In this document: positions 11 to 40,595 of the stretch, piece by piece
Layout: every line of letters starts with the position of its first letter
How positions within the stretch are numbered: position 1 is the stretch's first letter
Source: a virus
Direction: 5' to 3' (one strand)
Virus record (IMG/VR): IMGVR_UViG_3300037852_000186
Location: 1-64,000 of that record
DNA: 64,000 bases
The notes under the pieces: model-generated
What the model saw: the letters and a program-made list of their open reading frames with translations, nothing else
Told to the model about the DNA's origin: nothing
Database searches by the model: none
Translations under genes and position numbers: made by a program

Positions 11-1381
11 TCACGAATGTTCCGTGCTGATCGCTTGCGTTAAAGTGATCGCCGTACAGTTGGCCCAAGAACCCGCTGCCAACTGTGTATAGCTCGGCTG
101 TGTTAGTACTATATTATATACTCCAGGAACGCTTCCTATTGCCGCAACGATCTCGGCTGGCACTATATCCCTGGCGATCCTTGACCCGATATTCAGCGCA
201 AACTGCGTCGCCGCTGTATTCGCCGCCGACATCGTAGTCGCTGGGTCCGCGTCAGAATAAAGCGTCACGGTGCCGACGATGGCGTAATCCACTTCAGTTA
301 CCGCGAGTGCATTGACAGTGTCCGTGAGCGGTCGGATCGAGTCCGAGTTAACGATAGCAAAAACCTTGGCGAGTATCGCACCGCTGGCGATAGCCGAAGT
401 GTTCGGGTTGCTGAACGGCTGCACGATAGGCCCCATCAGCACGTACACGTTCACAGTCCCTGGCACTGGCGTCGTTATCAGCACATCGATGATTCCAGGG
501 TCCGCTGACCGCGCCCAGAATTGATAAGCGCCATTCGGCCCCGCCACGCTGAAACGATTAGGCGCGGCTCGGATGCGGTCGCGTAGGTGCGCGTCAGACT
601 CAGTTTGGTTGCCGCCGCTCGTCACGGTCGTGTTCGTCACCGCCGAAACTAGAGTATTCGGGTTAAGCTGGACGGTGAGTTGCCCGATGGCGTAATTGTT
701 CGCGGTCGGCCCCGGCGTCGTGCAAACCGCGTTGATTACGCCGGTCGTGTTGCCGGCTGGAATCGTGAGGTCGCCGAGCGTGGCGAACGAAAACACGCCG
801 TCCTGGGTGCCTACAAGCGTTGCTGACGGCACCACGAAGGGAAGTGTCTGTGCTGCCCCAAGCGCGAATTGCAGAGTGCAGGAGGCGCCTACGGCTGGCA
901 ACCGCGTGACGCCGACCAGTTGCCCGAGATAGTCGAGCATCGGGTAAGCAGAAAACGCCACGAGGCATTGCATGGCCGCGTACTGAATCGCGTTGCGGAC
1001 GAGGGACTCGCGATAGGCATAGAGGTCGATCAGCAGGCGCTCGACTTGCGCTGGGTAAAGCGTGCGGCCGGCTAGGGCTTGGAAGGAGGCGATCATATCG
1101 TTGAGTATCGCGCCGGGGTCTAATCCATCCGCATCGTTAACGAAATTCGGGATCGGAAGAGAAACGATGCCCGTGGGAAGAGATACTACCTGCAAAACTG
1201 CCACACATGACCAGCCGCCCGTGCCATCAGTAGTGAAGGAACCGAGCACAGCTCCCCATGTTGGCGGTATTGGACCAGTAGACCCCGACAACGATGACCA
1301 CTGCTGAATATTTCCTGAGGGGTCCACGATAATTTTTCCAGCCGCTACACTGGAATTTGGCGCCCATGCGGGATTTGGCAT
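11..1381 (-). CDS. Baseplate protein, gp47 / baseplate J family
   Basis: 456 aa, close to Mu gp47 and P2 gpJ in length. This family forms the baseplate wedge linking the central hub to the tail fibres of contractile tails. The core (about residues 90-440) has the J-like pattern, including a TESDAHLRDRIRAAPNR segment near the middle. The first 65 residues are an extra module with Trp and Gly-Asn-Ile-Gln (DPSGNIQQW...PTWG...DGTGGW) that resembles modules inserted in the sheath protein. The start overlaps the stop of the upstream HNH gene as TAATG. It is the distal gene of the tail operon in the window. Confidence 0.88.
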   Translation of the reverse strand: MPNPAWAPNSSVAAGKIIVDPSGNIQQWSSLSGSTGPIPPTWGAVLGSFTTDGTGGWSCVAVLQVVSLPTGIVSLPIPNFVNDADGLDPGAILNDMIASFQALAGRTLYPAQVERLLIDLYAYRESLVRNAIQYAAMQCLVAFSAYPMLDYLGQLVGVTRLPAVGASCTLQFALGAAQTLPFVVPSATLVGTQDGVFSFATLGDLTIPAGNTTGVINAVCTTPGPTANNYAIGQLTVQLNPNTLVSAVTNTTVTSGGNQTESDAHLRDRIRAAPNRFSVAGPNGAYQFWARSADPGIIDVLITTPVPGTVNVYVLMGPIVQPFSNPNTSAIASGAILAKVFAIVNSDSIRPLTDTVNALAVTEVDYAIVGTVTLYSDADPATTMSAANTAATQFALNIGSRIARDIVPAEIVAAIGSVPGVYNIVLTQPSYTQLAAGSWANCTAITLTQAISTEHS

Positions 1382-2049: not shown

Positions 2050-2496
2050 TTAGGCTAAGCTCCGTGGAACCGTAATGGTGAGTTGCTGATTCCCTATATT
2101 AGCAACATCTAGAGCCAATTGCCAGACGATTGTAATCAATAAGTTAGCAAGGGTTCCGGGGACTAAATCGACGACCACGGAAAGGATCCGGACTCTCGGC
2201 TCGAATTTCAAGACACTCTCAACTATCTCGCGCACTAGCGCTGGTCGCGCCACATCAATCGGGGTGTCCAGTAAACTCCAAAGATCGCACGCAAACGTAG
2301 GCCGCAACGGGTCACTCCCTGGCGGCGTAGAAAGGATAATCCCGATGCACTGATTGACATCCGCTACTCCTTGCACCACTAGTCCAATCCCCGCCCCCGG
2401 CGTAACCGCCTGCAACTGAGTGCCGATAGAAGAATCAAGAGCCAGACTCCAATCTGCACTTTGAATATCGTCAAGTGTTACCGCGTTAGCACTCAT
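2050..2496 (-). CDS. Baseplate wedge protein, gp46 / GPW-gp25 family
   Basis: 148 aa, the normal size for Mu gp46 and T4 gp25-like proteins, which initiate sheath polymerisation at the baseplate. Visible signs are the PLRPTFACDLWSLLD segment (family pattern R-P-x-FG-x-x-L), the REIVESVLKFEPRVRI helix-strand and a hydrophobic C-terminal strand pair. Its place just before gp47 matches Mu and P2 order, apart from the HNH gene between them. Assigned by pattern and synteny. Confidence 0.82.
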   Translation of the reverse strand: MSANAVTLDDIQSADWSLALDSSIGTQLQAVTPGAGIGLVVQGVADVNQCIGIILSTPPGSDPLRPTFACDLWSLLDTPIDVARPALVREIVESVLKFEPRVRILSVVVDLVPGTLANLLITIVWQLALDVANIGNQQLTITVPRSLA

Positions 2497-2850: not shown

Positions 2851-3186
2851 TCATGGGGCATTGTATACAAGAGTCAGCATGCCGTTATAAGGTCTGGCCC
2901 CAGTAGGTCTAAACCTGACAGATATACTACACGCTGCATGTGCGGCCAGCATTGCACCACAAGTATTTGTTTGCGAATATCCTGTCGGCGCTGTGATGCT
3001 ATTAATTCGCAGGGCTACATTCTGTCTATTATTTAAGATTGCTGTTTTGGCGGGGCTGGTTGTGTTTATTTTTTGATTGCCGAACGATAAGTTACCAGGG
3101 AATAGTGTTACAGATCGTGTCCAAATTGCCCGCGCAGTTCCCGTGATGGCTATGATAAATATTACGATGCCGAGTTGTCGTTTCAT
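2851..3186 (-). CDS. Secreted single ASH / choice-of-anchor-D domain protein
   Basis: 111 aa with a clear signal peptide (MKRQLGIVIFIIAITGTARA). The mature part has the ASH-type pattern: SLSFGNQ-like strand, then NTCGAMLAAHAACSISVRF and P-Y-N-G-M-L-T-L near the end. The same domain type closes the protein at 9815-10867. ASH domains are Ig-like folds frequent in surface proteins of Acidobacteriota and other soil bacteria. It lies 2 nt after the giant repeat gene, probably in the same transcript. Confidence 0.68.
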   Translation of the reverse strand: MKRQLGIVIFIIAITGTARAIWTRSVTLFPGNLSFGNQKINTTSPAKTAILNNRQNVALRINSITAPTGYSQTNTCGAMLAAHAACSISVRFRPTGARPYNGMLTLVYNAP

Positions 3187-3188
3187 AT

Positions 3189-6100
3189 TTATGCTGCTGC
3201 TGCGTCCGCTGCGACTACGTCAAACACCACTTCGCTCGAATAGACCGGACCGACTGGTCCAGGGAACATCAGGGCTACTGCCGCGTGCCAGCGTCCTATT
3301 GCGAAATCGCCAGGTACAACCGAGTATTCCCACTGCTGAGTGATTGTGTTCCAAGTCAGAGGGCGGGTCGTAAGATTATGGTTTTGGTCGCGAAGACAAA
3401 GGGTTGCGACAACCCCAGTGAAATCGTTGTAGCCACGGTTTACTGGCGAGAGTGGAAATCCCAGCACCTTGCCATTGTCCGCGAGCGTGACCGTGAAATA
3501 GCGATTGAAGCCTGTGCGTTCCCCTAGCATTGCGAAAACTGGCGCTCTGTAACCAAGGAGGCTCGCTATCGTGGTTTGGAGAGCGCTGAGTACGCTTTGG
3601 GCGAATTGTCTGATTGCTTGAATTGTAGTCACAACGGGCGCCATTAAGGTCATCGCGCCTTGGGCAATGAATGGTCCAATTCCGCTGAGCCCGAGCGCCG
3701 TGAGCTGCATGGTTACTTGTGCTGGCAACTTGCCCGCGAGGTTGGCGAGTACGGTTACGGTCTGATGAGTTACCGAGACTGCGGTAGCGACAAGCGCCTT
3801 GGTGGTGGAGTTTATCGCAAGTCCGATAATGGTCACTGCAATGATAGGCTTTCGGACTAGAACTCCCAGACTCGCCAATCGTGATGTGGAAATGGATGCA
3901 GCAATGCGGGCAATTAGTCGCGCGCTAGGAGTGAGGGCTTGATTAAGGATTGCACCAGCCGCCGAGATCCTAACCTTGACGGCCGCGATAACGTTTATGG
4001 CTTGGCTGATCGTCGCAAACGCCACATTGCGCGAGACTCGGAATAGAGAGATAAAGCTGGCAGCTACTGCGGGCGACAATATAACGAGCAGGGGTTTGCT
4101 GACGAATCTGGCGGCTGGAGTTACGGCTCGTCCAATTATTGCGTATGCTAAGGTCGCTGCGGTTTTAACTGGCGCCGCCGCGAGCAGCGCAATCGCCGCA
4201 ATCGATGCTGTTGCTTTGCCAATAAACCGGGCCGTAGCGCCTAGTGCCCGCGCGGTGATGGTCACGCTTGCTTTCGCCAGAAACCGCGCCGCCGACGTGA
4301 ATGCCTTGGCGGTTATCGCGTAGGTAGAAATCGCGCCAAGCTTGATCGTCTGAACCGTGGTCGCTGCTTGGCTTACTACGAGAAAAACTACTTGCTTGGT
4401 CATGCTCGTGCTGGCGGTCGCGGCAGCGACGAGCTTGGTGAGTGTGGCAGCGAGTTGGGCTGTAGGTATCAACCGAGAGGCTACGGCAAATGCTCGGCTA
4501 AGAATTGTATAGGTGGCCGTTACGGAGGTCTTGATTGCCGTTAACAGTGTGAGTGCTTGGGTGGAGATTGCTGCGGAAGCGTGTCCGATGAACCGAGATG
4601 CTGGGGTGAAGGCTTTGGCCGCGATGCTCGCGGATGCCTTACCGATGAACCGCGCTGTCACCGCGACGAGCGGGCTGGTCGCTGCATAAATTATTGTGGC
4701 GGTGGTCTTGATGGCCCCTGCTGCATTCAGTGCTTGCGCGCTGATGGCTGCGATGCTCTTGGTGAGAAACGAAGCCTTGGGAGCAAGGGCTTGCGCGAGC
4801 ACGGCGAAGCTTCTGCTCACGGCGGTCTTTACTGATTCGCTAGCGTTGACTGCGCGGTTCGCAATAGCTATCGCAACTGGCCCGAGGAAGCGCGCCGCTG
4901 GTGTAAGTGCCTGAATTGTAATTGCGAGCGCTATACTTGCTGCTGTTTTGATTGTGCCGCTGACATTGAGCGCTCGATTCGATACAGCAAGCGACACTTT
5001 GCCAAGAAGGCGCGAGGCTACTGTCAAGGCTTGGGAGGCTACGGTTAGGATCGCAACTCCCGTGGTTTTGACCGACCCAGCAGGGCTAAATGCCTTCGTT
5101 CCAATGATGACGGTTGCAGTTCCCGCGAACCTCGCGACTGGTGTGAGTGCGTCCGCCGATATTATGAGAATCGCGCTGAGAGTAGACTTTAGAAATTTGG
5201 CGAGATTGTGGGCACGTGGAATTCTTGTTCTCTGCGGTACGGCGTAACGACGCCTCGGGCGCATGCGCCGTGCGGTAGCGTAAATAAATCGCGCGGGCCT
5301 GATTCCGAACCGTCGCTTAATTGGTTGCACAGTAACAACCCGCCTTTTGCGTGTGAGTGCGTGGCGCGCTATTACCAGAAAGCCATTGAGTCGGGGAGCT
5401 GTTCGGCGTTTGAAATTGACAGTGGGAGATAGGAGCTTTTTGCGTTTAACGGCTCGCGCAACCCTGACGAACGGCATTCCGATGGCGTAAGTAAGGTGGT
5501 GTGCAATCCGATTACGGCGTGGCCGTTGCACCGCGCTAGGCCGCTTGCGTATTTGCGCTCGCCTGATTGTGGCCAGAAGCGGCGCGAATCGTCGCTCAGC
5601 TCGGCGCCTTGCCGCTGCCGCTGCAACTCGCGTCATCTTTCGCTTGATCCCGTGCGCGACACGAATGAACGGCATTCCGATGGGATAATAAAGATGTCTC
5701 GCGATTCGAGATCGCCGACGCTGTGCCGCTGCTGGCATGGCCGGTCGAACTCGCAAGCGGAGCGCTGCGTGAGCGGTATGAACTATAAACGTATGGACGT
5801 GCGGCGTAGGACGGAATCGTCGTGGTTGAGGTTGTGGTTGGGATAGGGCGTAACGGCGGCGGGGAGCGTGAGGTCGAGCGCTGCCGACAATCGCTGCTAT
5901 CGCCTGAAGAGCGATAATGATCGCTCCGCCATTGGTATTCCCACCGGCAGTAGCTTGAAATCCGTATGTGCCCGTTGCCGTGACGATCTGATAGGCCGAA
6001 TTAAATCCGTATCCATTGCCATTTACGACAGTTAATGCAGTAAACGTCCCACCCGTCGCGCCATAATCACTAAGTGTTGGCGTAAAGGTGCTACTATTGA

Positions 6101-6578
6101 CAGCCGTCCCAACCAATAGGTCATTGGCGTTAGTTGTGGTAATCGTGCCACTTTGCACATTCGCCGAAACGTTAGCATCAGTTCCGACACTTGACTTATC
6201 TACGGCCGCAGTAGTCGCCACACCGGAATAAGTAGATAGATTCGCCGCTATCCCATTGCCCGTCGAACCGGGGAATGTGCATGCTAACGTTACAATGGTC
6301 GCGCCTGATGGATGATTCAGTGAATAATGAATATCTACCTGAATACCCACAGAAGGAAACGCTGAAACCGGGCAAGACGTTAATTCAGTCCATACAGCGG
6401 AGCCTTGGTTATTATCAGAGACAGAAAATGTACCGAGAGATGTAAATCCCGTGTTTGGTTGCGATGATGAAGCTAGGACAAGACAATTTTCTCCAGCCGC
6501 TAACGTCAATGAGGGGAGAATCAGCGAACTACCGGACCCATTGTTGCCGCTAGTCTGCTGTTTAAAGACAATCGCCAC
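3189..6578 (-). CDS. Giant repeat protein (fibre-like) with fused baseplate-type C-terminal domain
   Basis: 1129 aa in four parts. Residues 1-230 are a beta-rich jelly-roll-like head seen also in the genes at 6579, 9815 and 12113. Residues 234-456 are extremely Arg/Pro-rich with an internal duplication (RIARHLYYPIGMPFIRVA and RIAHHLTYAIGMPFVRVA). Residues about 465-1000 are tandem units of roughly 20 residues alternating ARFIGKAS-type and SIKTAAT-type halves, each holding a QAL(T/N)-like core. Residues about 1025-1129 (TVTLADNGKVLGFPL...SSEVVFDV) match the separate gene at 11811-12113 and resemble a phage baseplate upper protein domain. No signal peptide is seen. Function is inferred: a long fibre or adhesin of the particle. 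Confidence 0.72.
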   Translation of the reverse strand: MAIVFKQQTSGNNGSGSSLILPSLTLAAGENCLVLASSSQPNTGFTSLGTFSVSDNNQGSAVWTELTSCPVSAFPSVGIQVDIHYSLNHPSGATIVTLACTFPGSTGNGIAANLSTYSGVATTAAVDKSSVGTDANVSANVQSGTITTTNANDLLVGTAVNSSTFTPTLSDYGATGGTFTALTVVNGNGYGFNSAYQIVTATGTYGFQATAGGNTNGGAIIIALQAIAAIVGSARPHAPRRRYALSQPQPQPRRFRPTPHVHTFIVHTAHAALRLRVRPAMPAAAQRRRSRIARHLYYPIGMPFIRVAHGIKRKMTRVAAAAARRRAERRFAPLLATIRRAQIRKRPSAVQRPRRNRIAHHLTYAIGMPFVRVARAVKRKKLLSPTVNFKRRTAPRLNGFLVIARHALTRKRRVVTVQPIKRRFGIRPARFIYATARRMRPRRRYAVPQRTRIPRAHNLAKFLKSTLSAILIISADALTPVARFAGTATVIIGTKAFSPAGSVKTTGVAILTVASQALTVASRLLGKVSLAVSNRALNVSGTIKTAASIALAITIQALTPAARFLGPVAIAIANRAVNASESVKTAVSRSFAVLAQALAPKASFLTKSIAAISAQALNAAGAIKTTATIIYAATSPLVAVTARFIGKASASIAAKAFTPASRFIGHASAAISTQALTLLTAIKTSVTATYTILSRAFAVASRLIPTAQLAATLTKLVAAATASTSMTKQVVFLVVSQAATTVQTIKLGAISTYAITAKAFTSAARFLAKASVTITARALGATARFIGKATASIAAIALLAAAPVKTAATLAYAIIGRAVTPAARFVSKPLLVILSPAVAASFISLFRVSRNVAFATISQAINVIAAVKVRISAAGAILNQALTPSARLIARIAASISTSRLASLGVLVRKPIIAVTIIGLAINSTTKALVATAVSVTHQTVTVLANLAGKLPAQVTMQLTALGLSGIGPFIAQGAMTLMAPVVTTIQAIRQFAQSVLSALQTTIASLLGYRAPVFAMLGERTGFNRYFTVTLADNGKVLGFPLSPVNRGYNDFTGVVATLCLRDQNHNLTTRPLTWNTITQQWEYSVVPGDFAIGRWHAAVALMFPGPVGPVYSSEVVFDVVAADAAAA

Positions 6579-7304
6579 TTAACTATCGCTTTGTATCGTG
6601 GAGGCGTGGAATACTATTGCGGGAGAAGTACCAGGAAAGTCTAACTCGAACGTTGCTAAGGGCGTCAAGAGTCCTGCCGTGAATGTTACCAACGAATTTG
6701 CTGTCGCTGTTACGACCGTCAGAGATGGGGCATGCGTGCCTACTCCCGTCGCATTAATAACTAACGGTGGCGGTGTTTCTGGTACGGGCGGTGGCATGGT
6801 TATAGGCAATACGAACTGCTGACTCAAAGTCGAGAAACAACCCACAACGATCAATGGTGCCGTACTATTGCTGACTGTCAATGGCTTCGTTGCCACGGCT
6901 GACGGGGAAATTGAGATCGCGCCCGTAACAGATGTCGCACCGCGCACTCCGAGTACAAGGCATGCCACGTAAGCGCTCGTCGAGAACGGAAACGCAAATA
7001 TGCGCCCGGCATCGCCGCTAGCTACTGTATAAGATAGAATTGTGATAGGGGCAGTATGGGCGACGAGATTCCAGCCACCGACTACTCCAAGTACGGGGCC
7101 GACGATACCGACTATATAGATATCGCCGACTTGTGCGTCGTTCTGGACAGCAACGTTATATCCGGTGGCATAAGACATGACATTAGTACGCTTAACGCAT
7201 TCGATGATATCAAGGTCCGCAGCCGCTGGCGCCCGCCTTGCACACAGTAAGGAAAGTACCGCCGCTGCTGTTGCATGTGACAGCATTATGAATAAGATGG
7301 ACAT
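6579..7304 (-). CDS. Jelly-roll-like domain protein, possibly exported
   Basis: Up to 241 aa. The core (from about residue 43, MSYATGYNV, through GDIYIVGIVG and TPLATFELDF) is the same beta-rich domain that heads both giant repeat proteins. The start is uncertain. The upstream Met at 7304 gives a hydrophobic, Ala-rich signal-like N-terminus but overlaps the beta-helix gene by 95 nt; the Met at 7178 removes the overlap. A proline-rich linker (MPPPVPETPPPL) sits near residue 170. Probably a fibre tip or adhesin domain. Confidence 0.6.
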   Translation of the reverse strand: MSILFIMLSHATAAAVLSLLCARRAPAAADLDIIECVKRTNVMSYATGYNVAVQNDAQVGDIYIVGIVGPVLGVVGGWNLVAHTAPITILSYTVASGDAGRIFAFPFSTSAYVACLVLGVRGATSVTGAISISPSAVATKPLTVSNSTAPLIVVGCFSTLSQQFVLPITMPPPVPETPPPLVINATGVGTHAPSLTVVTATANSLVTFTAGLLTPLATFELDFPGTSPAIVFHASTIQSDS

Positions 7305-9825
7305 CTGTCACGCCAGCAGGTAATACGAAGTCTGGTGTCGATGATTGTTCTATCCCACCCGGTCGAAACAACGCATATTGAGCGAGAATCTGTGCATCGT
7401 GCGTTCCATCAAATAGCCCGTTGGGATTATCGTTGCTCATTACATTGTTCGCTCCTGGTTGACCCCACCAATTCATATACGTAGAAATCCCACTTCCAGA
7501 AGAACCATAGTTGATAGTGCCCGAAAACGTGCTAGCGAAACCATTGTCATTCACGAGCACTTTTGAAGGGCCGCTGATATTAACCGTGCCAGAGCCTGGT
7601 CCAAATGACTGCCCGAGGTGAGTAAGAGTATATGTGACATTAGCGCCACCGTTGATCGTGATAAATGGATTCGAGTTAGGATTCGCCATCCCTATGTCAC
7701 TTACGATCACAGATCCCGAGTTGCCAGTATCCGCATAAAGGATTGGGTTATTCCCGCCAGCGAGGTTGAGTTCATCCCAATTATGCTCCGCAACAACGTG
7801 CCCTTGATTGGTCACGCTTGCTACAGGCCCGATATTGTCATTGTATTCCCATACACGCAGCGCCGATGGGGACGCGAAATTGCCATCGCCATTAGCCGTG
7901 TATGACGATGTTAAGCAGGGGCACGTCCTCCAATAATCGCCAGCCGATGATCCACCATTCCAATCTACTATAGTATTAGTTAGCCCGGTGGTTTCAACAT
8001 TAAATGCGAGATTGCCATTGACTATGGCCAGATGCTGCCATGCAGTCACGCGAGCAGCGCCGACATTTCCCGGACCTGTAGCCGCACTATCTTCTGAATC
8101 TACTTGAACAATTACGGACTCGCTCGTCCCGCCTAAGTTCATATATTCCAGGCTAGCCTTACCTGGAGATTGTATCTGTATCATTGGCGTAATAGTGGAA
8201 TTTGTAGTGAGATATGTCGGCCCTGAAAAATACGCTCCCTCCCCTACGATATGTACATCGCAATGACCGGGAATAACCAATGTCGCATTTAAAGTGTGCG
8301 TGCCCGACGTTAGGTGAATTTGTGGGTGATTGCCGCCTTGGTATCCACTCGGACAAGCAGCGTTGACATCGCCTTGAATGTTACTACCTGCCTCGTCGCT
8401 ACCCGCTGAACCGCACTGCGCCGACGATCCACCGTTGAAATAGCATAGGCGATGTGGATTCCCTGATCCAGAATCTATTCCGGTGTTTGGTGGCGTCGGG
8501 TAACAACTAGATAAGTCTGTACTGGTGCTTCCCGAGATAGTCGGACAGGCGGTGCTGATACCAGTAACGCCATAGGTGTCGTTAATCTCTTTCAAACGAG
8601 GATTGCTACCGAGATTAAAACCTCCCGAACCTACGCTGAATTGATTGCCGATGGCCATAGCCGAACCTTGGTTAGCATTGCCGGTGAATGGAGTGCCGCT
8701 ACTTACAATTTGATTATCGAGTGCTAGATATCCAGTCTCACCAGCCATATTTACTGCGTTGCCGCTAGTTGGATTGAGAATGCGGTTGCCACGTAAGGTG
8801 ACGCCCGTGTCTCTACCGTCATTGTTCTGATAAAACCTACCAGAGCCAGAGCTTACATTATTGACCATCGAGAACGAGATGTAGTTACCTGATTGAGTAT
8901 CTATATCGTATGTGTTCGAGTGTATAAATACAGATCCTACGGAGTACCAGCCGCCAAAGGCGTTGGCGTAAATGCTTATATTGTTATTGATGAACGTGTC
9001 AAACATGGACGAGTTATTTTGATTATTGCCGCCCGACGTGATAGGGCCACAGGGGTCACCAGCGCCGTTGTCACCTTCGTAGATTGCGCAAGTAAAGTTA
9101 TAGAAGCGCCCGCGTATAATTTGGGTGTCAGGCGGCTGTAGATTAAGTCCTACGCCACCCTGTGCGCAAGGAAATGATGGGGGATTCAAAGAGGTGGGAG
9201 CACATCGTTCAAACGTGACATCCGTGATTGCTCCTTGCCAGCCCCCAACGGAGACACTGCCAGATTCCAGGAATTGCATACCCACCGATGCGGTAGCATT
9301 CAGATTCCAAGTCAACCTGTGAATATCCAGGAGAGACACGTCATAACCGGCCGGACTGGAGAACATCGGCGATACGCTACCACTATTCCATTTAAGTATG
9401 GTATCCGTGGGGCTGTGACCATACATGCGCGGTGGATAATATATAGCGGAATAGCCCGCACAGCCAGAGTTAGTACTGTTGCAAGCCGTCCATGTCAGAG
9501 TGCTGCCGAGCAGATACGTTCCAGCGGGGAAATAGAGTGCGCCGCCGTTATGTTGCTCGTAGGTGATACAGGATTGCAACGCAGCATCCACATTACCCGT
9601 CAAGCTCGTACCCGTGCCGGTACATACCGCACCCCCTCCACCGACCGGAGCCCCCGTCTGAACATTAATCCATGAAGCGTAGGGACCAGCGAATTCATCC
9701 TCGGGGGTGTTGGCCGACACTACAGTTCCCGTTCCGCTTAGATTCACGGTTCTAGTCGCGGCAATCGCGGACGTAACGCTGAAGTTGAGTAGAATGAGAA
9801 ATATGAGAAATAGTTTACGGACCAT
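7210..9825 (-). CDS. Secreted right-handed beta-helix protein, pectate-lyase-like fold
   Basis: About 871 aa. The ATG at 9825 follows a good signal peptide pattern (VRKLFLIFLILLNFSVTSAIA). After it comes a pectate-lyase-3-like entry: DAALQSCITYEQ then GGALYFPAGTYLLGSTL, the usual first coil of a phage depolymerase or polysaccharide lyase. Repeated Asn/Gly/Ser-rich coils follow, and a second FPxGxY-like entry (HLTSGTHTLNATLVIPGH) near residue 500 suggests two helices in one chain. No catalytic residues can be assigned by eye. A signal peptide on a tail-region beta-helix protein is unusual, since virion proteins normally assemble in the cytoplasm. Confidence 0.75.
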   Translation of the reverse strand: MVRKLFLIFLILLNFSVTSAIAATRTVNLSGTGTVVSANTPEDEFAGPYASWINVQTGAPVGGGGAVCTGTGTSLTGNVDAALQSCITYEQHNGGALYFPAGTYLLGSTLTWTACNSTNSGCAGYSAIYYPPRMYGHSPTDTILKWNSGSVSPMFSSPAGYDVSLLDIHRLTWNLNATASVGMQFLESGSVSVGGWQGAITDVTFERCAPTSLNPPSFPCAQGGVGLNLQPPDTQIIRGRFYNFTCAIYEGDNGAGDPCGPITSGGNNQNNSSMFDTFINNNISIYANAFGGWYSVGSVFIHSNTYDIDTQSGNYISFSMVNNVSSGSGRFYQNNDGRDTGVTLRGNRILNPTSGNAVNMAGETGYLALDNQIVSSGTPFTGNANQGSAMAIGNQFSVGSGGFNLGSNPRLKEINDTYGVTGISTACPTISGSTSTDLSSCYPTPPNTGIDSGSGNPHRLCYFNGGSSAQCGSAGSDEAGSNIQGDVNAACPSGYQGGNHPQIHLTSGTHTLNATLVIPGHCDVHIVGEGAYFSGPTYLTTNSTITPMIQIQSPGKASLEYMNLGGTSESVIVQVDSEDSAATGPGNVGAARVTAWQHLAIVNGNLAFNVETTGLTNTIVDWNGGSSAGDYWRTCPCLTSSYTANGDGNFASPSALRVWEYNDNIGPVASVTNQGHVVAEHNWDELNLAGGNNPILYADTGNSGSVIVSDIGMANPNSNPFITINGGANVTYTLTHLGQSFGPGSGTVNISGPSKVLVNDNGFASTFSGTINYGSSGSGISTYMNWWGQPGANNVMSNDNPNGLFDGTHDAQILAQYALFRPGGIEQSSTPDFVLPAGVTDVHLIHNAVTCNSSGGTFLTVCKAGASGCGP

Positions 9826-10867
9826 TGTCAACTACCGTGAGTGAACCGTTTACAGTTGTTTGGCTAGCGGGCGTGAAAGTTACGGACACTGAGCAATTGG
9901 CGCCAGCGCCTATTGATGCGCCGCAAGTGTTAGCCGAGATCGCATAACTAGCGGGCGATATAGTGATGCTGGTAAAGTTCAGCGGTACGGCTTGCACATT
10001 GCTGATGGTGACGGACTGCGCCGCACTGGTTTGTCCTACCGTTACGCTGCCGAAGGCTAGAGTGTTCGGAACGACTGAGACATGAGGCACGCTCGGCGCC
10101 AGGGCCACAATACCGCCGCAAAAATTACCGGTTGGGGTGAAAGCGCGTTGGAGGCTGGTATTTTGAGAGACGACAGCAGGTTCGGTTGCTGCCCCGATTG
10201 CTATGAAAGCATTAGAACCGATAGGGCCAAGGTCTGTGGGCGTGCCCGCGCCGACATTATTAGAAGATGCACCAGAAAATGCAGGACTGGTCGCTTCGGT
10301 GTAGAATAAACCAAAGAGTGTGTCGTTGGGCAAGGTAGCCGCGTTGGTGCCAGTAATTGCGGTTGCGCCTGCCGTGTATGGAGTGCCCGTACCGTTGTCG
10401 ATTAGCCCTAGATTATTGACCGTGCATAGGTATGCACCGTTGTTGCTTCCTTGATTGGGTTCGTGTGCGGTTACAGTGTCGGCACCTGTGAGGGGTGCGA
10501 GTACGTACTCGAAATTAATACAGTTATTAGATACCGCACCGACATTAGAAATAGTTGCCCAAGTATTGCCTTGGGTGTCAGTAACTGCGGGGTCGCCTGT
10601 TTGACCTTTATGGAATATTACCAACGATTGGCCAGCGGTCACGGTAACTGGTGCTAACACTACGTCATCGGCGCCCGCTGTGGCCCCGCCCGACGCCACG
10701 CCAGCAACGCAAGTACCAATAGTGGGAGCGTTGGAGACTACGACTGGGGAGCCTGCACTTGTGCCGATGAAGAAGATTCCCGTCGCGTTCGCAGGAGATG
10801 CGCGTGTACCGAGTATTGTACAGAGGCAAATAAGGATAGATATTCGCACGAGGCGTGAATGGTTCAT
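9815..10867 (-). CDS. Secreted protein: jelly-roll-like domain plus ASH domain
   Basis: 350 aa. A signal peptide (SRLVRISILICLCTILG...ANA) is followed by the beta-rich head domain also present in the two giant repeat proteins (VTAGQSLVIFHKG, PNDTLFGLFYT). A C-terminal ASH / choice-of-anchor-D Ig-like domain starts near residue 260 (PNTLAFGSVTVGQTS...CGASIGAGANCSVSVTF). The stop overlaps the start of the beta-helix gene by about 10 nt, so the two are probably translated together. Function unknown; a surface adhesin or receptor-binding accessory is plausible. Confidence 0.7.
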   Translation of the reverse strand: MNHSRLVRISILICLCTILGTRASPANATGIFFIGTSAGSPVVVSNAPTIGTCVAGVASGGATAGADDVVLAPVTVTAGQSLVIFHKGQTGDPAVTDTQGNTWATISNVGAVSNNCINFEYVLAPLTGADTVTAHEPNQGSNNGAYLCTVNNLGLIDNGTGTPYTAGATAITGTNAATLPNDTLFGLFYTEATSPAFSGASSNNVGAGTPTDLGPIGSNAFIAIGAATEPAVVSQNTSLQRAFTPTGNFCGGIVALAPSVPHVSVVPNTLAFGSVTVGQTSAAQSVTISNVQAVPLNFTSITISPASYAISANTCGASIGAGANCSVSVTFTPASQTTVNGSLTVVDNGP

Positions 10868-10898
10868 TTAATTTGCGATGGCCGAGGCTTAGGCCAAA

Positions 10899-11432
10899 TT
10901 AGGCGATGGTCTGAGTTATTGCAGCGTAATATAGAATGTTGTGCGATTGCGTAGCGTCGAGCGCTTGTCCCTGCATGTTTATGGTGCCGATGCCGAACTG
11001 AAGGGGAGGATTCAGGCCACCGGCGTTGAAAGCCTGCGAGATGTTGAACGACTGTATACCTACTGCGGTCGCCAAGGGTAATCCACGCATTGGCACTTTA
11101 CAGCCAAAGACCAACTCCGTTCCCGGCAGGACATCGCCGTAACGCATAGCATCCAATCCTGTGTATGCAGCGCGCGGTAACGTGGTTATGGCAAGATTGG
11201 AGCCTGTGGCCGGATAAGAATAGTTATTTCCATCATAGCTGTAGAGGACTATATACATATCGCCAGTTGCAACAGCGGCGCCAACTGTCAAAAGGCCGGA
11301 TATTTGATAGTCAAGTGCCAGCGTTACCGCATTCGTGATAACCGCAGATAAATAAATACTTTGATCCGCTTGGCTGACATTCGTAATCGCAAACGAAGTG
11401 ACGCTCCCATATTTGGTATTAGCGGTAGCCAT
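10899..11432 (-). CDS. Probable virion-associated beta-rich protein, unknown
   Basis: 177 aa, no signal peptide, Ala/Thr/Tyr-rich and beta-strand-like throughout (DMYIVLYSYDGNNYSY, LPGTELVFGCKVPM). Composition and position among fibre genes suggest a particle protein such as a fibre cap or decoration protein. It starts 1 nt after the stop of the upstream 117-aa gene. Family not recognised. Confidence 0.6.
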   Translation of the reverse strand: MATANTKYGSVTSFAITNVSQADQSIYLSAVITNAVTLALDYQISGLLTVGAAVATGDMYIVLYSYDGNNYSYPATGSNLAITTLPRAAYTGLDAMRYGDVLPGTELVFGCKVPMRGLPLATAVGIQSFNISQAFNAGGLNPPLQFGIGTINMQGQALDATQSHNILYYAAITQTIA

Positions 11433-11433
11433 G

Positions 11434-11787
11434 TTACTTCATTACCTCCTGGCAAGCGGCAATCATTCCATTGAGTCGCGACATTAATTCACCCCATGAT
11501 AGGGACCCATGCGTTCCGTCGGCTATCCATTTAAGGAGCTGATATCCGCCTGCTTGCTGGGCTAGAAGCTCATAAGGAATTTCAGCCACCTTATCCTTGA
11601 ACAGTTTTTTCCCAGCTTCATTTTGCGACAGATCCGCTAACTCCATGAGTTGGCGGTACTCAGCCAGTTTGACATGACATTCATCGAAACTATGTGCGCC
11701 AGATTTAGCTGCACAGGTATCTAGGGTGGTGGTGAGTGTCTGGGTCGCTTCGACCAGTTCCTTCATCTGTTCTTCGAGACTAGGCAT
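11434..11787 (-). CDS. Small helical protein, unknown
   Basis: 117 aa, mostly alpha-helical and charged (MPSLEEQMKELVEATQTLTT, DLSQNEAGKKLFKDKVAEIP), with two Cys and no membrane segment. A fibre-assembly chaperone would fit its position between the split baseplate-type domain gene and a beta-rich gene, since tail fibre genes often have such partners, but no family is recognised. Confidence 0.55.
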   Translation of the reverse strand: MPSLEEQMKELVEATQTLTTTLDTCAAKSGAHSFDECHVKLAEYRQLMELADLSQNEAGKKLFKDKVAEIPYELLAQQAGGYQLLKWIADGTHGSLSWGELMSRLNGMIAACQEVMK

Positions 11788-11810
11788 TTCATTTCCTCAT
11801 GCGCATATTG

Positions 11811-12113
11811 TTAATCCGGTGGTAGCACGTCAAAAATAACTTCACTCGAATATATCGGCCCGCGAGGACCAGGAAACGTTACCGCGACTTCTGCCCAATA
11901 GCGTCCCGCTGGAAACTCCCCAGCAAAGACCGCATATTCCCATTCGATAGTTATCGTGTTCCACGCCATAGTGCGCGTGCGCAGCAGGTTGCCTTGGTCG
12001 CGGATATTGAGTACGGCGGACGCTCCGGTGAAATCATTAGGATCGCCCGAATGCTTGCGGAGCGGAAAGCCGAGCACTTTGCCGTTGTCTGCTGTCGTGA
12101 ATGATGGATACAT
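11811..12113 (-). CDS. Stand-alone baseplate-upper-type domain
   Basis: 100 aa. Its sequence parallels the last 105 residues of the giant protein at 3189-6578: TADNGKVLGFPL, NDFTGA, ITIEWEYAV, FPGPRGPIYSSEVIFDV. The pattern resembles N-terminal domains of phage baseplate upper proteins that attach receptor-binding proteins. Its start overlaps the stop of the second giant repeat gene as TAATG, so the two products are separate chains made together where the paralog is a single chain. Confidence 0.68.
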   Translation of the reverse strand: MYPSFTTADNGKVLGFPLRKHSGDPNDFTGASAVLNIRDQGNLLRTRTMAWNTITIEWEYAVFAGEFPAGRYWAEVAVTFPGPRGPIYSSEVIFDVLPPD

Positions 12114-15100
12114 TACAGCGTTGCATCGAAAGCAATGACCGCATCTAGCTCCGCGTCAAATACGATAACGACAGGCGGTGATGCGTGCGCAAATGGGAAT
12201 TGTTGGGCCAGCAGAGATAATCGAGCGTAGAAGGCTGCTGCGATTTGCCTGACGCCTCCACCCAATATAAAGCCACCACCCCAGGCCAAGTTACGTATAT
12301 TAAACGCCGCCGCGAACGATCCTTTAATTGTTGTCAGTGTAGAAAATGCGGTTCCAACAATCGCGAATATACGGTTCGCGGCCAATCGTAGAGATGAGGT
12401 AACCGCGCTGACACCTACCGCGAGTGTGCCCAATACGCGGGTTCTAGTTATTGCTGTCGTTGTGAAGCGTGGAAGATGTAGCGCAAACGCCACGGCGGCG
12501 CCAGCCAATTGTGAGCTTAGGGTAATGAAGATAGTGAGCGGGGTCCGAATTGCGACGATTACGCTGGTCGCTTTCTTTACTAGGCTGATGTTTGAAAAAG
12601 ATGTTGCCGTAGCCGAGAGTAAAGTAGAGATTCGGGTAATGATTCGCGTGGTAGTAGTTAGAGCTTGTGTGATGATGGCAAAAGCGGTCAGTGGCAGAGG
12701 TCGAACCTTGGCTAAGTTAGTAAAGCTGGGAAGTTGCGCGACCAACGTAGAGACTGTTTGTTGAAAACGCGTGCCGCCTGCTGCTAAGACTCGGGGCGAT
12801 GCCAATATCGTTATTGTGGTGGTGGCAACGGTTTTAATAGTAGCAAGTCGCGATAACGCAGTGGTTAGGGCGCTGAGTCCTACTCTTGTGGTTAGCCGTG
12901 CTGAAGCGGTGAGTGCCCGAGCGGTGAGTGTGAAAATTGCCGTTGTTGCTGTTTTGATAGTCGGCGAGATGCCGAGTGCGGAACTGAGGATTGACGTGTT
13001 TGCAGTAAGAACATCAATAATTCTGCTGAATACATAGCCTGCCGCCAGCGCTGGTTGCGAAATGCTAAACGGCAATACCCGCGAAATTCGTACAGACATT
13101 ACCGCGCCGAGGGCGCGGTTTATAATTGAGTAGGTAACGTTAGGTCGAAGCTTGAATATCGTCAGCGCGGTTACCGCGCGGTTGATGATGGTCACCGCCA
13201 CAGCCACGGGCATTTTCATGACTGCGGCGGGCGTAAAAGACTGCGTCAAAATAAGAAACGATCCGGAAATATTGCGAATTGTAGTCGCGATGGACGCGGC
13301 GGCACCCAATGCGTCCGTCAGAATAGTGCTAGTGGCTTTCGCCATGAGCCTAGCGGACGGTGCTAGGGCTTTCGTTGTAATGCTGAGGGTCGTAACGGTG
13401 GAGGTGCGAATCAAACCCGCAGCGTTGAGGACGCGGCCTAGCAATACGAGACTGGCGCTTGTAGCGGTTCTGATGAGCGATGTTGGAGTTAGTGCTTGAG
13501 TCAGGATTCCGAGCACTACATTGGCGCCATAGCGGGGGGTTTTAAGCAGTGTACCCGCACCGAGAATTGGAGTTAATATGGCCGCGAAGATTGTGCGAGC
13601 AAGGCGCGGCGCGGTGACTACGCGTGGAGAAAGTGCGGTTAGTGCTGAGCGTCCAATAAAGCGTGCGCTCGTCTTCGCTGCGGTTATCGCTGCGCTTAAT
13701 GAAACTTTAGTTGCTAGACGTGAAGCAGGCGTGAGAGCTTGCGCGATGATCGCTATTGCCGCAGTCGGAATACTCTTGACTGCGCCCGTCGTCCCGAGGG
13801 TTCTATTGATAATAGTAGATGTTGTTTTGGAGATTAGGCGAGCGACGATGTTTGCTTTAGACTGTAAGAGCGGAAAAGTGAGTCTAGTAATTAATTGCGC
13901 GCCGGTTCCGAGAACTTGGGTCAGCAAGCTAAAAGTTGGTCTGGAAAGAAAGCGGCTTGCAGCTCCGAGCGTATCTGCCAAGATTGCCACAGTTTGGTTT
14001 GCGACTTTCTTGATGGCTCCCGTTGCATTCAAAGCCTTAGCAATTAAGGCTAAAGTGGCTGTAGGCACGTAGCGCAGACCAGATATGGAATTAAGGACCG
14101 TTGTCAACGCGGGCACAAGCACGCCGAGTATTATTTTCGGTCGAATCGTCAGCGCTTGAGCATTGATAGGAAGTGTTGATTTACTAAGAAGTAGCGCGCG
14201 CGCGGTGACTGCACGTCCCAATCGCAAGGGCTGCCAAGGCACGGCGAAGGCCCATCTGGAAAATTTAGCCGCAAAGTTAACCGTGGCTGCTAGGATAAAG
14301 TGTTGCGTAACGACCGTGGTCAGCGTAGTGGTCGGATGCCCAAGCCGTATAGGTTGCCATGGTAATGCAAATACCCATTTGCTGAATCGGGTAGAGATAG
14401 GTATGCGCGCAAGCGCCACGAGGCGCGGAAGTGCGGCCGCTGGAGTAAGTGCTTGAACATTGATCGGTGTACTTACTCGGTCGGTCAATCGAGACGCGGG
14501 CAACAGGGTGCTCGCGGGTATTGTCACCGCCGCGATAGGGGTAGCTCCTTGTTTAAAGACGACCAGAGCTGTAGCCCAGTTACCAGAACCCGCAGTCATT
14601 CCTGTTGCGTATGTGCTAGTTGCCGTGACAGTGAGGTCGCTGAGGGCGTATCCAAGTGGTCCGCCTAAATCATTTCCCGCTCCAGCCCCAACCCCACCAG
14701 TAGCAAACTCTGAAATAAATGAATTAGTAGGTACGGTCGGCGTTGTTTGTATATCGCTGGCCACGCCAAATACTAACAAGTCATTCGCGTGAGTAGTAAT
14801 CGCATTGCCACTAATCGGTGCGGCACTCGTCCCTGAGTTGACAGCGGAGGGGAGAGCATCGATACCCTCGCCGTAGGTCGCGTATTCGGCGACTATGCTG
14901 CCCACTGTGATATGGCTGGTTCCTGTCTGACCGTTGAACAACGGATTTATTGTAGCTCCCGCCGTTACGCATACCGCCGACCATATCTCTATTCGCGCGC
15001 CCGCAACGCCGCTTCCGTTTGAGCGAGCCGCTCGCAGATTCCACAGTGCTCCCAGGCCAACTATAGTCGAAATCGTCGGCGAAGGATTATTCACCGATCC

Positions 15101-15814
15101 ATTAAGCGCGAAGATGCCGACTACCAAGTGGCCCACAGCCACATTGCCACCAAAGGTGATGACATCGCCACCGAGAGTCCCGGTAAATACGTGATGCCCG
15201 ACTTGAACGGGAATCGGGGCGGCTGGAGCAATAGCGATAGTTACTGTCGTCCATCGGCATGCAACGCTTTCCGTAGCTAGTTGCGTGGAGGACGAGTTGG
15301 TCGCCAGCGCTAAATGCCCGGTCATCAGGCCATAGGTCGAACCGTATGGTAGATTCTGATCAATGGTTAAAGAACCGTTCTCCGAACAAGTAGGGCTGCC
15401 ACTCGCAAAACTGCCGTTATTGTAGACTCCGATTAGCAAATCGGAATTACTTGATAACGGTCCAGCGAGCGCGGGGATATTGAAAGTGAGAGCTGTATTT
15501 GTACTGCTGTCGGTGAACAGTATTGCGTCTGGAGTAGTGCTTGGATTGGCCCCTTGAATGGCATACATCACAGAGCCCGGACCGCCTCCCACTCCGCTAA
15601 CCGTATACGAAGCTGGCTCACTGCTTGCGATACGAGCAGCCACCCACGTTACACTGGTAACTTGAAGGTGGTAGCCAATTTGCGTCCAACCAACAGAGCT
15701 GGGAGTAGCGCTACTATCTGTGACCAGTATTAGCAGCAGCAGATCGCCATCAACGTGCGTAGGAACATTGATGGTAGCAGTGCCGTTGGTCGAAGCCCGG
15801 ACTGAAGGAGCCAT
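12113..15814 (-). CDS. Giant repeat protein 2 (fibre-like)
   Basis: 1233 aa, paralog of the 3189-6578 protein. Two beta-rich jelly-roll-like domains occupy about residues 1-195 and 196-425. A short basic stretch has a duplicated motif (WVFALPWQPIRLG and WAFAVPWQPLRLG). About residues 540-1190 are tandem roughly 20-residue units (SLLTQVLGTGAQLITR, AIIAQALTPASRLATK and similar). It lacks the C-terminal baseplate-type domain, which is the next gene. No signal peptide. The repeats are too regular for a globular fold and suggest a shaft or sheath-like filament. Confidence 0.7.
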   Translation of the reverse strand: MAPSVRASTNGTATINVPTHVDGDLLLLILVTDSSATPSSVGWTQIGYHLQVTSVTWVAARIASSEPASYTVSGVGGGPGSVMYAIQGANPSTTPDAILFTDSSTNTALTFNIPALAGPLSSNSDLLIGVYNNGSFASGSPTCSENGSLTIDQNLPYGSTYGLMTGHLALATNSSSTQLATESVACRWTTVTIAIAPAAPIPVQVGHHVFTGTLGGDVITFGGNVAVGHLVVGIFALNGSVNNPSPTISTIVGLGALWNLRAARSNGSGVAGARIEIWSAVCVTAGATINPLFNGQTGTSHITVGSIVAEYATYGEGIDALPSAVNSGTSAAPISGNAITTHANDLLVFGVASDIQTTPTVPTNSFISEFATGGVGAGAGNDLGGPLGYALSDLTVTATSTYATGMTAGSGNWATALVVFKQGATPIAAVTIPASTLLPASRLTDRVSTPINVQALTPAAALPRLVALARIPISTRFSKWVFALPWQPIRLGHPTTTLTTVVTQHFILAATVNFAAKFSRWAFAVPWQPLRLGRAVTARALLLSKSTLPINAQALTIRPKIILGVLVPALTTVLNSISGLRYVPTATLALIAKALNATGAIKKVANQTVAILADTLGAASRFLSRPTFSLLTQVLGTGAQLITRLTFPLLQSKANIVARLISKTTSTIINRTLGTTGAVKSIPTAAIAIIAQALTPASRLATKVSLSAAITAAKTSARFIGRSALTALSPRVVTAPRLARTIFAAILTPILGAGTLLKTPRYGANVVLGILTQALTPTSLIRTATSASLVLLGRVLNAAGLIRTSTVTTLSITTKALAPSARLMAKATSTILTDALGAAASIATTIRNISGSFLILTQSFTPAAVMKMPVAVAVTIINRAVTALTIFKLRPNVTYSIINRALGAVMSVRISRVLPFSISQPALAAGYVFSRIIDVLTANTSILSSALGISPTIKTATTAIFTLTARALTASARLTTRVGLSALTTALSRLATIKTVATTTITILASPRVLAAGGTRFQQTVSTLVAQLPSFTNLAKVRPLPLTAFAIITQALTTTTRIITRISTLLSATATSFSNISLVKKATSVIVAIRTPLTIFITLSSQLAGAAVAFALHLPRFTTTAITRTRVLGTLAVGVSAVTSSLRLAANRIFAIVGTAFSTLTTIKGSFAAAFNIRNLAWGGGFILGGGVRQIAAAFYARLSLLAQQFPFAHASPPVVIVFDAELDAVIAFDATL

Positions 15815-18516: not shown

Positions 18517-19098
18517 TTAAGGCATCAACTGACCAGGAATCGTTGTGTTGCCTTCGCTCGGGTCGCCGTGGGTGTGAGAATCGTAAGTATCGATCATGGT
18601 ATTAACCGAATCTGTATGTTCGTTGGTATGGAACGTGATATCTCCATTCGGCGCTGCAAGATTAAGATTGCCGCCATTCGCTGTGATGTTGGCGCTTCCA
18701 CCATTGACCGTGATGTTAATGGTCCCTGTTGTAACGACGTTTACCGCGAGCGTATGAGTACTGCGGTCATACTCGAACGTGCTGCCGTCTTTCATGGTCG
18801 CGTGCCACTTGTCCGCCGACTGCACGGGCGTAGTATCTGCGCTCGAATAGATCGCGCCGAGCACCGCGCCGTCTTCGTCATGCGAGTCCATTAAGCAGAC
18901 GACTTGCTCGCCGAGATCCGGGATGTTGTAAATCTTGTCGTTTTGTGTTTTGCCCATAACGACCGGCAGCCACCACGACACGAGTTGGTTGCGGTCGGGG
19001 AAGGTTACTCGCACTCGGCAATTCTGTATGTCCTGCGCTTGGACTAAGCCCACGCGAAAGACTGAGGTTGTGGTGCGTTCTGGTTCGCGATCTTCCAT
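18517..19098 (-). CDS. Baseplate spike protein, gpV / Mu gp45 family
   Basis: 193 aa from the ATG at 19098, 2 nt after the stop of the beta-helix gene. The N-terminal OB-fold region (FRVGLVQAQDIQNCRVRVTF, DLGEQVVCLMDSHDEDGAVLG) matches gpV/gp45 spikes. A short repeated beta-helix follows (TGTINITVNGGSANITANGG). The C-terminus has the HTHGD motif, typical of metal-binding spike tips (HxH). The spike punctures the outer membrane on contraction. Size fits Mu gp45. Confidence 0.88.
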   Translation of the reverse strand: MEDREPERTTTSVFRVGLVQAQDIQNCRVRVTFPDRNQLVSWWLPVVMGKTQNDKIYNIPDLGEQVVCLMDSHDEDGAVLGAIYSSADTTPVQSADKWHATMKDGSTFEYDRSTHTLAVNVVTTGTINITVNGGSANITANGGNLNLAAPNGDITFHTNEHTDSVNTMIDTYDSHTHGDPSEGNTTIPGQLMP

Positions 19099-19100
19099 AT

Positions 19101-21050
19101 TTAGGGCGTAGCCGATCCGTTCGGGTCTTGCGGTGTTGCGATGGCCGTTCCGTTGCCCTGCCACCAGGTCCAATTATTTGAAACGACCGCGTTGTTGCCT
19201 GAAGCCGTTGCCCACGACCAGTTGTTTTGACTCTTGTCAGCCGGACTAACAAAGGTCCAAGCGTTGTGATCGAAAAAAGCTGGTACGCAGAGAGGCCCAG
19301 TGCCGTTGCCGGTGCAACAATTCATGGTTATGCCAGAAGGCCCAACATTTGCGGAAGTGCAATCCTGCACGGGATGGAACATATGAAAGACTAGGCTGCT
19401 GTTGCTACTCGCCCCCGATGGCTGTCCGGTATTACCTCGCATAGTGATGTTGTTGTATTGTACCTTATCTGCGTAGACTTCGTTTCTGCTGCCCTGATTA
19501 AGTATTATTGCGCCGCAATGTGTATCGATGGAGTTGGAATGTTGGAACTCGCCGAGCAAAGTATTCGATGAGTTATTCAAATTCACTTCCCAATATTGAC
19601 CGGGAAAACAAGCTGTTCCGCACGTACCAGTTTGAAAGCCTGTACAACAATCAGGATTGAGACGCGGCACGTGATTTCCGAGGCAGGCGAGATTGTTCCA
19701 CTGCGCGTCGTTTGTGAGAGTATTGTCCTCGATGATGGATGGCGCTTGCGCGCCACTCACGCGTGGTGAGTCGCCGCTGATTTCCTCTACTATGCCGTCA
19801 AGAAGATTATCGTGGACGATGTTGAAGGTATCGCGGACGGTAATACTGTGTGAATCGTGCCAGATGCCATGAGAGTTGTTATACTGAATGGTGTTATTGG
19901 TAACGGTGAGCCCCGTGTCGGCGTTAAATTTGTCGCCGACTTCGGTGCCGTAGCCCGTTGAATCAACATTCAGATATTCTGCCACGTTATTGGAAAAAGT
20001 ATCATTCGTGCCCGCGCCAGAACATAAACCGCCTTGTCCCATCTGCGCCACTTCGTTGCTGTCAACTAGAATACCGGATGCCCCGGTTTTAGCTTTGATG
20101 GCTTCTCCGTGGCTACGCCAAACAAGGTTATTTCTGATTTGGTTGTTAGTTCCTTGCGGTATGATGACCGCCGATTGATTGGGCGCGGCAAAATATTGGA
20201 ACGTCAGATTCTTGAATACCCAGTTTGGATTTCCGCTGACTACTGCATTTTGTACTACAGCTAGATTAACTGTGTGTGGGCCAGTAGGATCGCACGCCAT
20301 ATAGACGGTGTTGGCCCCGTGCCCGCCGACGTTCGCGTAATCCATGTACCAGTAGCAGGCCGGACTTGAGGGTGGGGGATAAGTCAAAGTGCGATTGACG
20401 AGTAAGCCGTCGTACCACAAATCCTGATGGTAAGTGCAAGCTGCGTTAGAAGCATCGTTGCAGGTCCCGTTTGTACCACCAACGGCATAGGTTGCGCCGA
20501 CGGTGTTGTACCATAGATGTGCGGATGCTTGATGCCAAGCATTATCTGGGCTATCGGTCGGAATAATTATCGAGCCATCGATGACCGCGCAGGGAGTATT
20601 GGTCCAATGGTCGGATGCGATAACGTGAGTACCCGCATCGCGTGGTGAATATAGTCCGCCCTGATTCTGATTGGTCGTTCCAACGCCAATAAATTGTTGG
20701 CCACCAGAAGAATCGCCTTTGGGGACTATAGCGGCCAACGATCCACTGTCATCTAGAGCCATCTTGTAGAAACCGCAAGCCAAAATAAACACTTTATGAT
20801 TGGTCACATCCCCACTGGCAGTAGTCACTAAATTGGTACGCGCGGCGATATTGGGTGTAGGTCCAGATGTCGGAGTTGGCGTAGGTGTAGGAGTGGGCGT
20901 TGGTGAGGCCGTGGGCATACCACCATTGAACGGCCCGCCGAAAAAATCTGGTTGCTGCGTGTAGGGTAAAACCTGCGGTTCCGCATAAAGTCGATGCAAC
21001 ACGAATAGCATATAGGCAAAGACTATAATTATGGGAATCGCGCGAGACAT
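19101..21050 (-). CDS. Secreted beta-helix protein with Pro-Thr linker
   Basis: 649 aa. The N-terminus is a signal or anchor (PIIIVFAYMLFVLHRLYA) followed by a Thr-Pro tandem linker (about residues 48-66). The rest holds parallel beta-helix coils with NN/SN turns (NNLVWRSHGEAIKAKTG, NNTIQYNNSHGIWHDSHS) typical of polysaccharide-active enzymes. Many Cys, including CCTG motifs, suggest disulfides and thus export. It lies immediately before the spike gene. Catalytic residues cannot be assigned. Confidence 0.7.
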   Translation of the reverse strand: MSRAIPIIIVFAYMLFVLHRLYAEPQVLPYTQQPDFFGGPFNGGMPTASPTPTPTPTPTPTSGPTPNIAARTNLVTTASGDVTNHKVFILACGFYKMALDDSGSLAAIVPKGDSSGGQQFIGVGTTNQNQGGLYSPRDAGTHVIASDHWTNTPCAVIDGSIIIPTDSPDNAWHQASAHLWYNTVGATYAVGGTNGTCNDASNAACTYHQDLWYDGLLVNRTLTYPPPSSPACYWYMDYANVGGHGANTVYMACDPTGPHTVNLAVVQNAVVSGNPNWVFKNLTFQYFAAPNQSAVIIPQGTNNQIRNNLVWRSHGEAIKAKTGASGILVDSNEVAQMGQGGLCSGAGTNDTFSNNVAEYLNVDSTGYGTEVGDKFNADTGLTVTNNTIQYNNSHGIWHDSHSITVRDTFNIVHDNLLDGIVEEISGDSPRVSGAQAPSIIEDNTLTNDAQWNNLACLGNHVPRLNPDCCTGFQTGTCGTACFPGQYWEVNLNNSSNTLLGEFQHSNSIDTHCGAIILNQGSRNEVYADKVQYNNITMRGNTGQPSGASSNSSLVFHMFHPVQDCTSANVGPSGITMNCCTGNGTGPLCVPAFFDHNAWTFVSPADKSQNNWSWATASGNNAVVSNNWTWWQGNGTAIATPQDPNGSATP

Positions 21051-25522: not shown

Positions 25523-25671
25523 GATTTCCCTATTTTCGGGTTTTGTGGTGCAGACACCGCGCCCGCCGGTTGTGATATACACTTGTATCCGATTCTTGTC
25601 AGCTCGCCCACCAACACACCTGCGCTGCTACATATCCACCAAAATAATATCCACAGAATAAGTCGCGTCAC
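25519..25671 (-). CDS. 50-aa membrane microprotein
   Basis: A 50-codon gene starting GTG inside the stop of the gpD gene (GTGA overlap) and ending TGA inside the GTG of the next gene, so both ends are translationally coupled. It opens with MTRLILWILFWWICSSAGVL, one Trp-rich membrane segment, followed by a polar tail. The double coupling is the main evidence that it is real. Function unknown; a lysis or membrane accessory role is possible. Confidence 0.55.
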   Translation of the reverse strand: MTRLILWILFWWICSSAGVLVGELTRIGYKCISQPAGAVSAPQNPKIGKS

Positions 25672-35718: not shown

Positions 35719-35783
35719 TAGTATGTACTCCCATTGACTAAGTGCTTGACGGCGCGTCGATACCGTGCAAGACTGTCGGTAGA
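35719..35783. promoter_or_regulatory. Divergent intergenic region, sheath / HNH
   Basis: 65 nt between the minus-strand sheath start and the plus-strand HNH start. The sheath side holds its ribosome-binding site (GGGAG). Divergence implies a promoter on at least one side, but no convincing -35/-10 pair was found. Confidence 0.25.
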
Positions 35784-40593: not shown

Positions 40594-40595
40594 GT

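Follow-up and report, generated by a model that had tools for sequence, protein, structure and literature searches.

Two giant proteins containing long arrays of short repeats are encoded among the tail genes of a phage, raising the question of what these arrays are made of and what part they could play in the virion. The window analyzed here, a stretch of 64,000 nt, belongs to a viral record of 99,974 bp, and its minus strand carries, in order, genes for terminase, head protease, major head protein, sheath, tape measure, a tail protein (25668-26711), gpV, a variable stretch, gpW, and gpJ. This gene order, including the sheath and tape measure, identifies the phage as contractile-tailed. Proteins 1 and 2 are encoded inside the long variable stretch of the baseplate cluster, between baseplate assembly protein V (gpV; 18517..19173) and the baseplate wedge W or gp25-like protein (gpW; 2050..2496), which is followed by baseplate wedge J (gpJ; 11..1381), the query used for finding relatives; all three genes lie on the minus strand. 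Other features of this region were recorded alongside. A gene between the structural genes (24105-24692) matched HNH endonuclease PHROGs, and another (1381-2043) appeared HNH-like by eye only. The gene at 9815-10867 contains an ASH or choice-of-anchor D type domain, and 2851-3186 matched the same PHROG (phrog_18474). Under a simple heuristic, Sec-signal-like N-termini were found in tail-locus genes of the window (9815-10867, 7210-9831, and 19101-21050, the last a predicted beta-helix protein) and of related contigs (L005 at 1412, 4820, and 8317; L093 at 13920; L101 at 13831); such starts are unusual for virion proteins and suggest export or another role. In addition, phrog_807, a major tail protein with an Ig-like domain, was matched by the sheath, a portal-like protein, and another virion protein (33559-35793, 39733-40638, and 46132-46896), so that several structural proteins of this phage appear, from sequence matches, to have Ig-like additions.

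The reading frames proposed for the two giant proteins were confirmed and are open over their whole length, and all their features lie on the minus strand. Protein 1 (3189..6578; 1129 aa) starts with a GTG codon immediately 3' of the stop codon of the upstream gene. Its head (residues 1-232; 5883..6578) is acidic (pI 4.2), with beta strands predicted at low confidence, and is followed by an Arg-rich region (5202..5882; net charge about +64), a repeat array (residues about 460-1012; 3543..5201) of 22 parsed units (12 A, 10 B), and a C-terminal Ig-like domain (3192..3515) that is BppU-N-like by fold search. The Arg-rich region contains a duplicated YPIGMPFxRVA motif, with the YPIGMPF copies spaced 66 aa apart, and is homologous to positions 6460-7908 of the related contig L096. 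Protein 2 (12113..15814; 1233 aa) is composed of two head domains (residues 1-425; 14540..15814), acidic (pI 4.7) and with strand-like periodicity, a duplicated PWQP motif (FSKWVFALPWQPIRLG / FSRWAFAVPWQPLRLG), an array (residues about 440-1180; 12275..14497) of 26 units in mixed A/B order according to the cross-validated parse, and a short C-terminal beta motif. The sequence-only reading had given both proteins jelly-roll-like heads and a basic region with an internal duplication. The predicted head is beta-rich only at low confidence, and the sequence link between the heads is weak (domain E 0.4); the basic region with its duplication is clear in protein 1, whereas protein 2 carries a different duplicated motif.

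The arrays are composed of two related unit types, A (19 aa, AARFIGKASASISAQALTP-like) and B (21 aa, AGSIKTAATIAYAITAQALTP-like), both of which end in QAL(T/N)(P/A). The coexistence of 19- and 21-residue units accounts for the autocorrelation peaks, which were found at lags 40 (z 10.4), 19 (z 7.2), 59, 80, and 21 in the array of protein 1 and, more weakly, at lags 21 and 41 (z about 4) in that of protein 2. A pentapeptide-repeat reading was rejected, as lags 5 and 10 were not among the top lags. When PSSMs trained on two arrays were scored on the third against shuffles, the held-out z values were 32.0 and 31.8 for the two proteins of the window and 41.8 for a third array protein (protein 3) from a related phage, with parses of 22, 26, and 34 units in the three members, confirming that the arrays are real. 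The two-part alternation of about 40 residues that had been proposed describes parts of protein 1, but elsewhere in the arrays A and B follow one another in no fixed order. Likewise, the supposed unit of about 120 bp exists at the protein level only, because TRF detected no DNA tandem repeats in either gene and the longest exact DNA repeats in the arrays, 11-14 nt, were the same as in codon shuffles.

The manner in which the units have diverged indicates what has preserved them. Identity among A units at codon positions 1, 2, and 3 was 0.44, 0.59, and 0.27, compared with 0.29, 0.31, and 0.26 for random segments; conservation of the first two positions beside a nearly random third position points to protein-level selection on the repeat. 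Adjacent units were no more similar than distant ones and, within a few percent, about as similar as units of other proteins, which argues against recent array expansion. The codon pattern, the similarity of neighboring units, and the lack of any exact repeat longer than 14 bases together establish that the repeat pattern is old, is kept at the protein level, and is not an assembly artifact, a concern also contradicted by the third member in an independent contig. The same data speak against the suggestion that array length could change by DNA recombination, since silent sites are saturated, DNA repeats are absent, and neighbors are no closer than distant units, so that units slipping or recombining today would find few matching stretches to act on; the different array sizes of the three members indicate that length changed in the deep past. 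Each other frame of the arrays contains at least eight stops, and overprinting is therefore not indicated.

Direct searches of IMG/VR and of 50,697 phage records returned no relatives of proteins 1 and 2, and neither the proteins nor the repeat had a significant family, PDB, or phage-record match, in keeping with the earlier remark that no known shaft repeat is recognizable: no family in the databases searched matches the repeat. Protein 3 was reached via gpJ, in an IMG/VR contig of a related phage (L006). Its match to protein 1 has an E value of 3e-42 and its match to protein 2 one of 4e-18, whereas proteins 1 and 2 match each other only at 1e-5; the latter two are thus old paralogues, alike mostly in the array. 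A degenerate DNA pattern for QALTPAAR gave three matches in IMG/VR, all unrelated; the repeat profile matched solely L006 among the 46 records behind the relatives, and nothing among 148 bacterial genomes around a MAG with a related tail cluster, a set with no positive control, so that this last result carries no information. The profile is too variable for a collection-wide scan, and its match counts say nothing about rarity. Of the contigs seen, just two encode array proteins (three proteins), and the Ig-like gene was more widespread. Scattered between tail genes of the related phages, we also observed repeats of 60-90 bp that share 91-93% identity (L006 57-130 and 4402-4475; L005 3517-3579, 6000-6089, and 6975-7103), which recall bacterial intergenic repeats; in L005, a second copy of the beginning of the gpJ gene lies 76 bp upstream (9925-9958 and 10001-10034).

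A connection to the baseplate is provided by the Ig-like family, which comprises the C-terminal 100 residues of protein 1 and a stand-alone gene of 100 aa (11811..12113, minus strand) to which protein 2 is coupled by a TAATG stop-start overlap. The family is conserved in about ten related contigs and in a single bacterial MAG, and in the relatives inspected it lies near gpD, gpV, gpW, or gpJ homologues. By sequence, the domain had no significant Pfam (best E 0.02-0.03), PHROGs, NCBIfam, or PDB-sequence match. AlphaFold2 predicted a beta fold (pLDDT about 80-94), with which Foldseek matched BppU-domain and neck-passage/baseplate proteins in BFVD (best E 2e-4 to 2e-3) and, weakly (E 0.01-0.065), TP901-1 BppU (3uh8/4v96), the 80alpha baseplate (6v8i), and the NF5 baseplate (9m8o) in the PDB; cellular Ig-like domains were also returned. 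Thus, the likeness of the modeled domain to the Ig-like baseplate domain of BppU is one of fold, as found by fold search, and does not extend to sequence. In L005, L006, L090, L092, L093, and L096, the Ig-like gene is preceded by a small FxAxLD gene or an FxAxLD C-terminus, and the C-terminal motif of protein 2 (VVIVFDAELDAVIAFDATL; 12116..12178, minus strand), itself of FxAxLD type, resembles these small genes and likewise stands before the Ig-like gene. In L096, the FxAxLD C-terminus follows an Arg-rich protein that contains YPIGxPF three times and is related to the basic region of protein 1. Given these combinations, the locus looks modular, with optional heads, an optional Arg-rich part, an optional array, a C-terminal motif, and the Ig-like gene. 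The Ig-like gene of L096 (8001-8307) is split across two overlapping frames, by a frameshift or a sequencing error.

The chemistry of the arrays is strongly biased. They are hydrophobic (GRAVY 0.71-0.91) and basic (K+R 8.5-9.8%, D+E 0.4-1.6%), with a net charge of +45 to +71 and Asp/Glu almost absent over 550-765 residues. R/K stood at position 3 of the A units and at position 5 of the B units, in 91% of cases for each type, the units having been chosen partly on such residues. In all three arrays, the hydrophobic moment was maximal at 100 degrees (z 3.5-5.8); the same test gave z 9.5-10.4 for the tape measure protein of this phage, and the periodicity of the protein 2 heads was maximal near 160 degrees. 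A minor strand-like signal was detected in the arrays (z up to 2.4 at 170-180 degrees), and B units alternate between hydrophobic and polar residues across positions 4-14. Two AlphaFold2 runs, one repeat-shifted and one full-length, both gave helical arrays, with pLDDT mostly 38-55, pTM about 0.3, and the best part at about residues 930-1000 of protein 1 (pLDDT 62-81). Neither Pro (maximum 44% at any unit position) nor Gly (maximum 25%) was invariant. Together, the periodicity and the models suggest that the array is probably helical. The fiber-shaft likeness noted in the sequence-only reading therefore survives in part: the baseplate locus and the BppU-like Ig domain favor a tail-associated structural role, whereas the helical periodicity of all three arrays and the AlphaFold2 helices, despite their low confidence, disfavor a beta shaft.

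The reading that we tentatively prefer, while granting it somewhat less than an even chance, is that proteins 1 and 2 are accessory baseplate proteins of the adhesin type, with an Ig anchor, a segmented stalk of cationic amphipathic helices, and distal heads. By analogy with BppU, docking on the baseplate would fall to the Ig-like, BppU-N-like domain, which is fused in protein 1 and, for protein 2, supplied by the coupled gene that follows; the array would form a long segmented arm, its short cationic amphipathic helices rich in Ala/Ser/Thr and interrupted at T/N-P/A-A; and we infer that the N-terminal beta-rich heads would be distal, probably contacting the cell surface. The nearly acid-free, positive stalk would probably also bind anionic surface polymers or outer-membrane phosphate. 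Several observations weigh against this reading: the low confidence of the array models, the minor strand-like signal and the alternation in B units, a domain order opposite to that of BppU, the failure of the Ig domain to match Pfam or PDB sequences significantly, the cellular Ig-like domains among the Foldseek matches, and the occurrence of array proteins in fewer contigs than the Ig-like gene. A rival proposal, which we regard as rather unlikely, takes the array to be chiefly a membrane- or polyanion-active element rather than a stalk, one whose polycationic amphipathic helices disturb or bind the host envelope (LPS, anionic lipid, or capsule) at adsorption or DNA entry. The hydrophobicity, the excess of K+R over D+E, and the helical periodicity described above are consistent with such activity, as are the net charges of the Arg-rich regions (+64 in protein 1 and about +104 in L096); however, in most units K/R recur too closely to leave room for a transmembrane helix, and the Arg-rich and array modules are found without each other (L096, L006) and therefore need not act together. 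The extreme positive charge and near absence of acidic residues might alternatively serve nucleic-acid binding in proteins ejected with or bound to DNA, as internal or pilot proteins, but fusion or coupling to a baseplate-type Ig domain, a coding position between baseplate genes, and a hydrophobicity unusual for nucleic-acid-binding tails make this very improbable.

A trimeric, beta-structured fiber shaft, for instance one resembling a triple beta-spiral with 19/21-residue units, would fit the unit length, the 4-14 alternation in B units, and the weak 170-180 degree signal, and AlphaFold2 run on a monomer can miss a fold that exists only as a trimer; against it, alpha-helical periodicity dominates in three of three arrays, AlphaFold2 predicts helices, and Gly and Pro are not invariant, leaving such a shaft distinctly unlikely. 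That the arrays are unconstrained low-complexity filler or a sequencing artifact, as biased composition and length differences between members might hint, is barely credible, being contradicted by the codon pattern, the third member in an independent contig, and a frame open over 3.4-3.7 kb while the other frames are riddled with stops. Whatever its role, the repeat constitutes an unrecognized protein repeat family, hydrophobic, basic, and nearly free of Asp/Glu yet constrained at the protein level, a chemistry unusual for a viral tail protein. If the array is a baseplate stalk, as we prefer, it would widen the range of materials used for phage adhesion arms, with an Ig anchor that is reversed and separable as a gene; if it acts on membranes, the virion would carry an array of cationic helices. 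The stronger claim of a new class of virion appendage, in which a nearly acid-free polycationic array of 20-34 amphipathic-helix units with interchangeable heads and an Ig anchor of reversed polarity acts by electrostatic envelope adhesion or perturbation, seems to us unlikely.

With alpha-solenoids (Armadillo/HEAT), the arrays share, in parts of protein 1, a period of about 40 residues made of two helical halves, but here A and B units are mixed in any order and acidic residues are almost absent; no Pfam repeat matched the array, and the best profile similarity, a weak one with an ARM repeat protein made by design (E 0.085), was not significant. Triple beta-spiral fiber shafts, such as those of the adenovirus fiber and reovirus sigma1, resemble the present arrays in being long, in their unit length of about 20 residues, and in having Gly/Pro turns here and there, whereas the present arrays show helical periodicity, no invariant turn residue, and almost no acidic residues. 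In the Lactococcus phage TP901-1 and the Staphylococcus phage 80alpha, Ig domains of the BppU type, each with an alpha-helical coiled coil after it, act as baseplate anchors, ringing the tail and leading into helical peripheral arms, which in TP901-1 carry the receptor-binding proteins (PMC10747895, PMC7048315). An Ig-like docking domain detected by fold search, predicted helices beside it, and a coding position amid baseplate genes are shared with BppU, FibL, and FibU (TP901-1 ORF48; 80alpha gp62 and gp68), here without a significant sequence match. The Ig domain of BppU is N-terminal, whereas here it is C-terminal or a separate gene, so that the domain order is reversed; further differences are the array of more than 20 nearly acid-free units, the contractile tail, and the V-W-J type baseplate.
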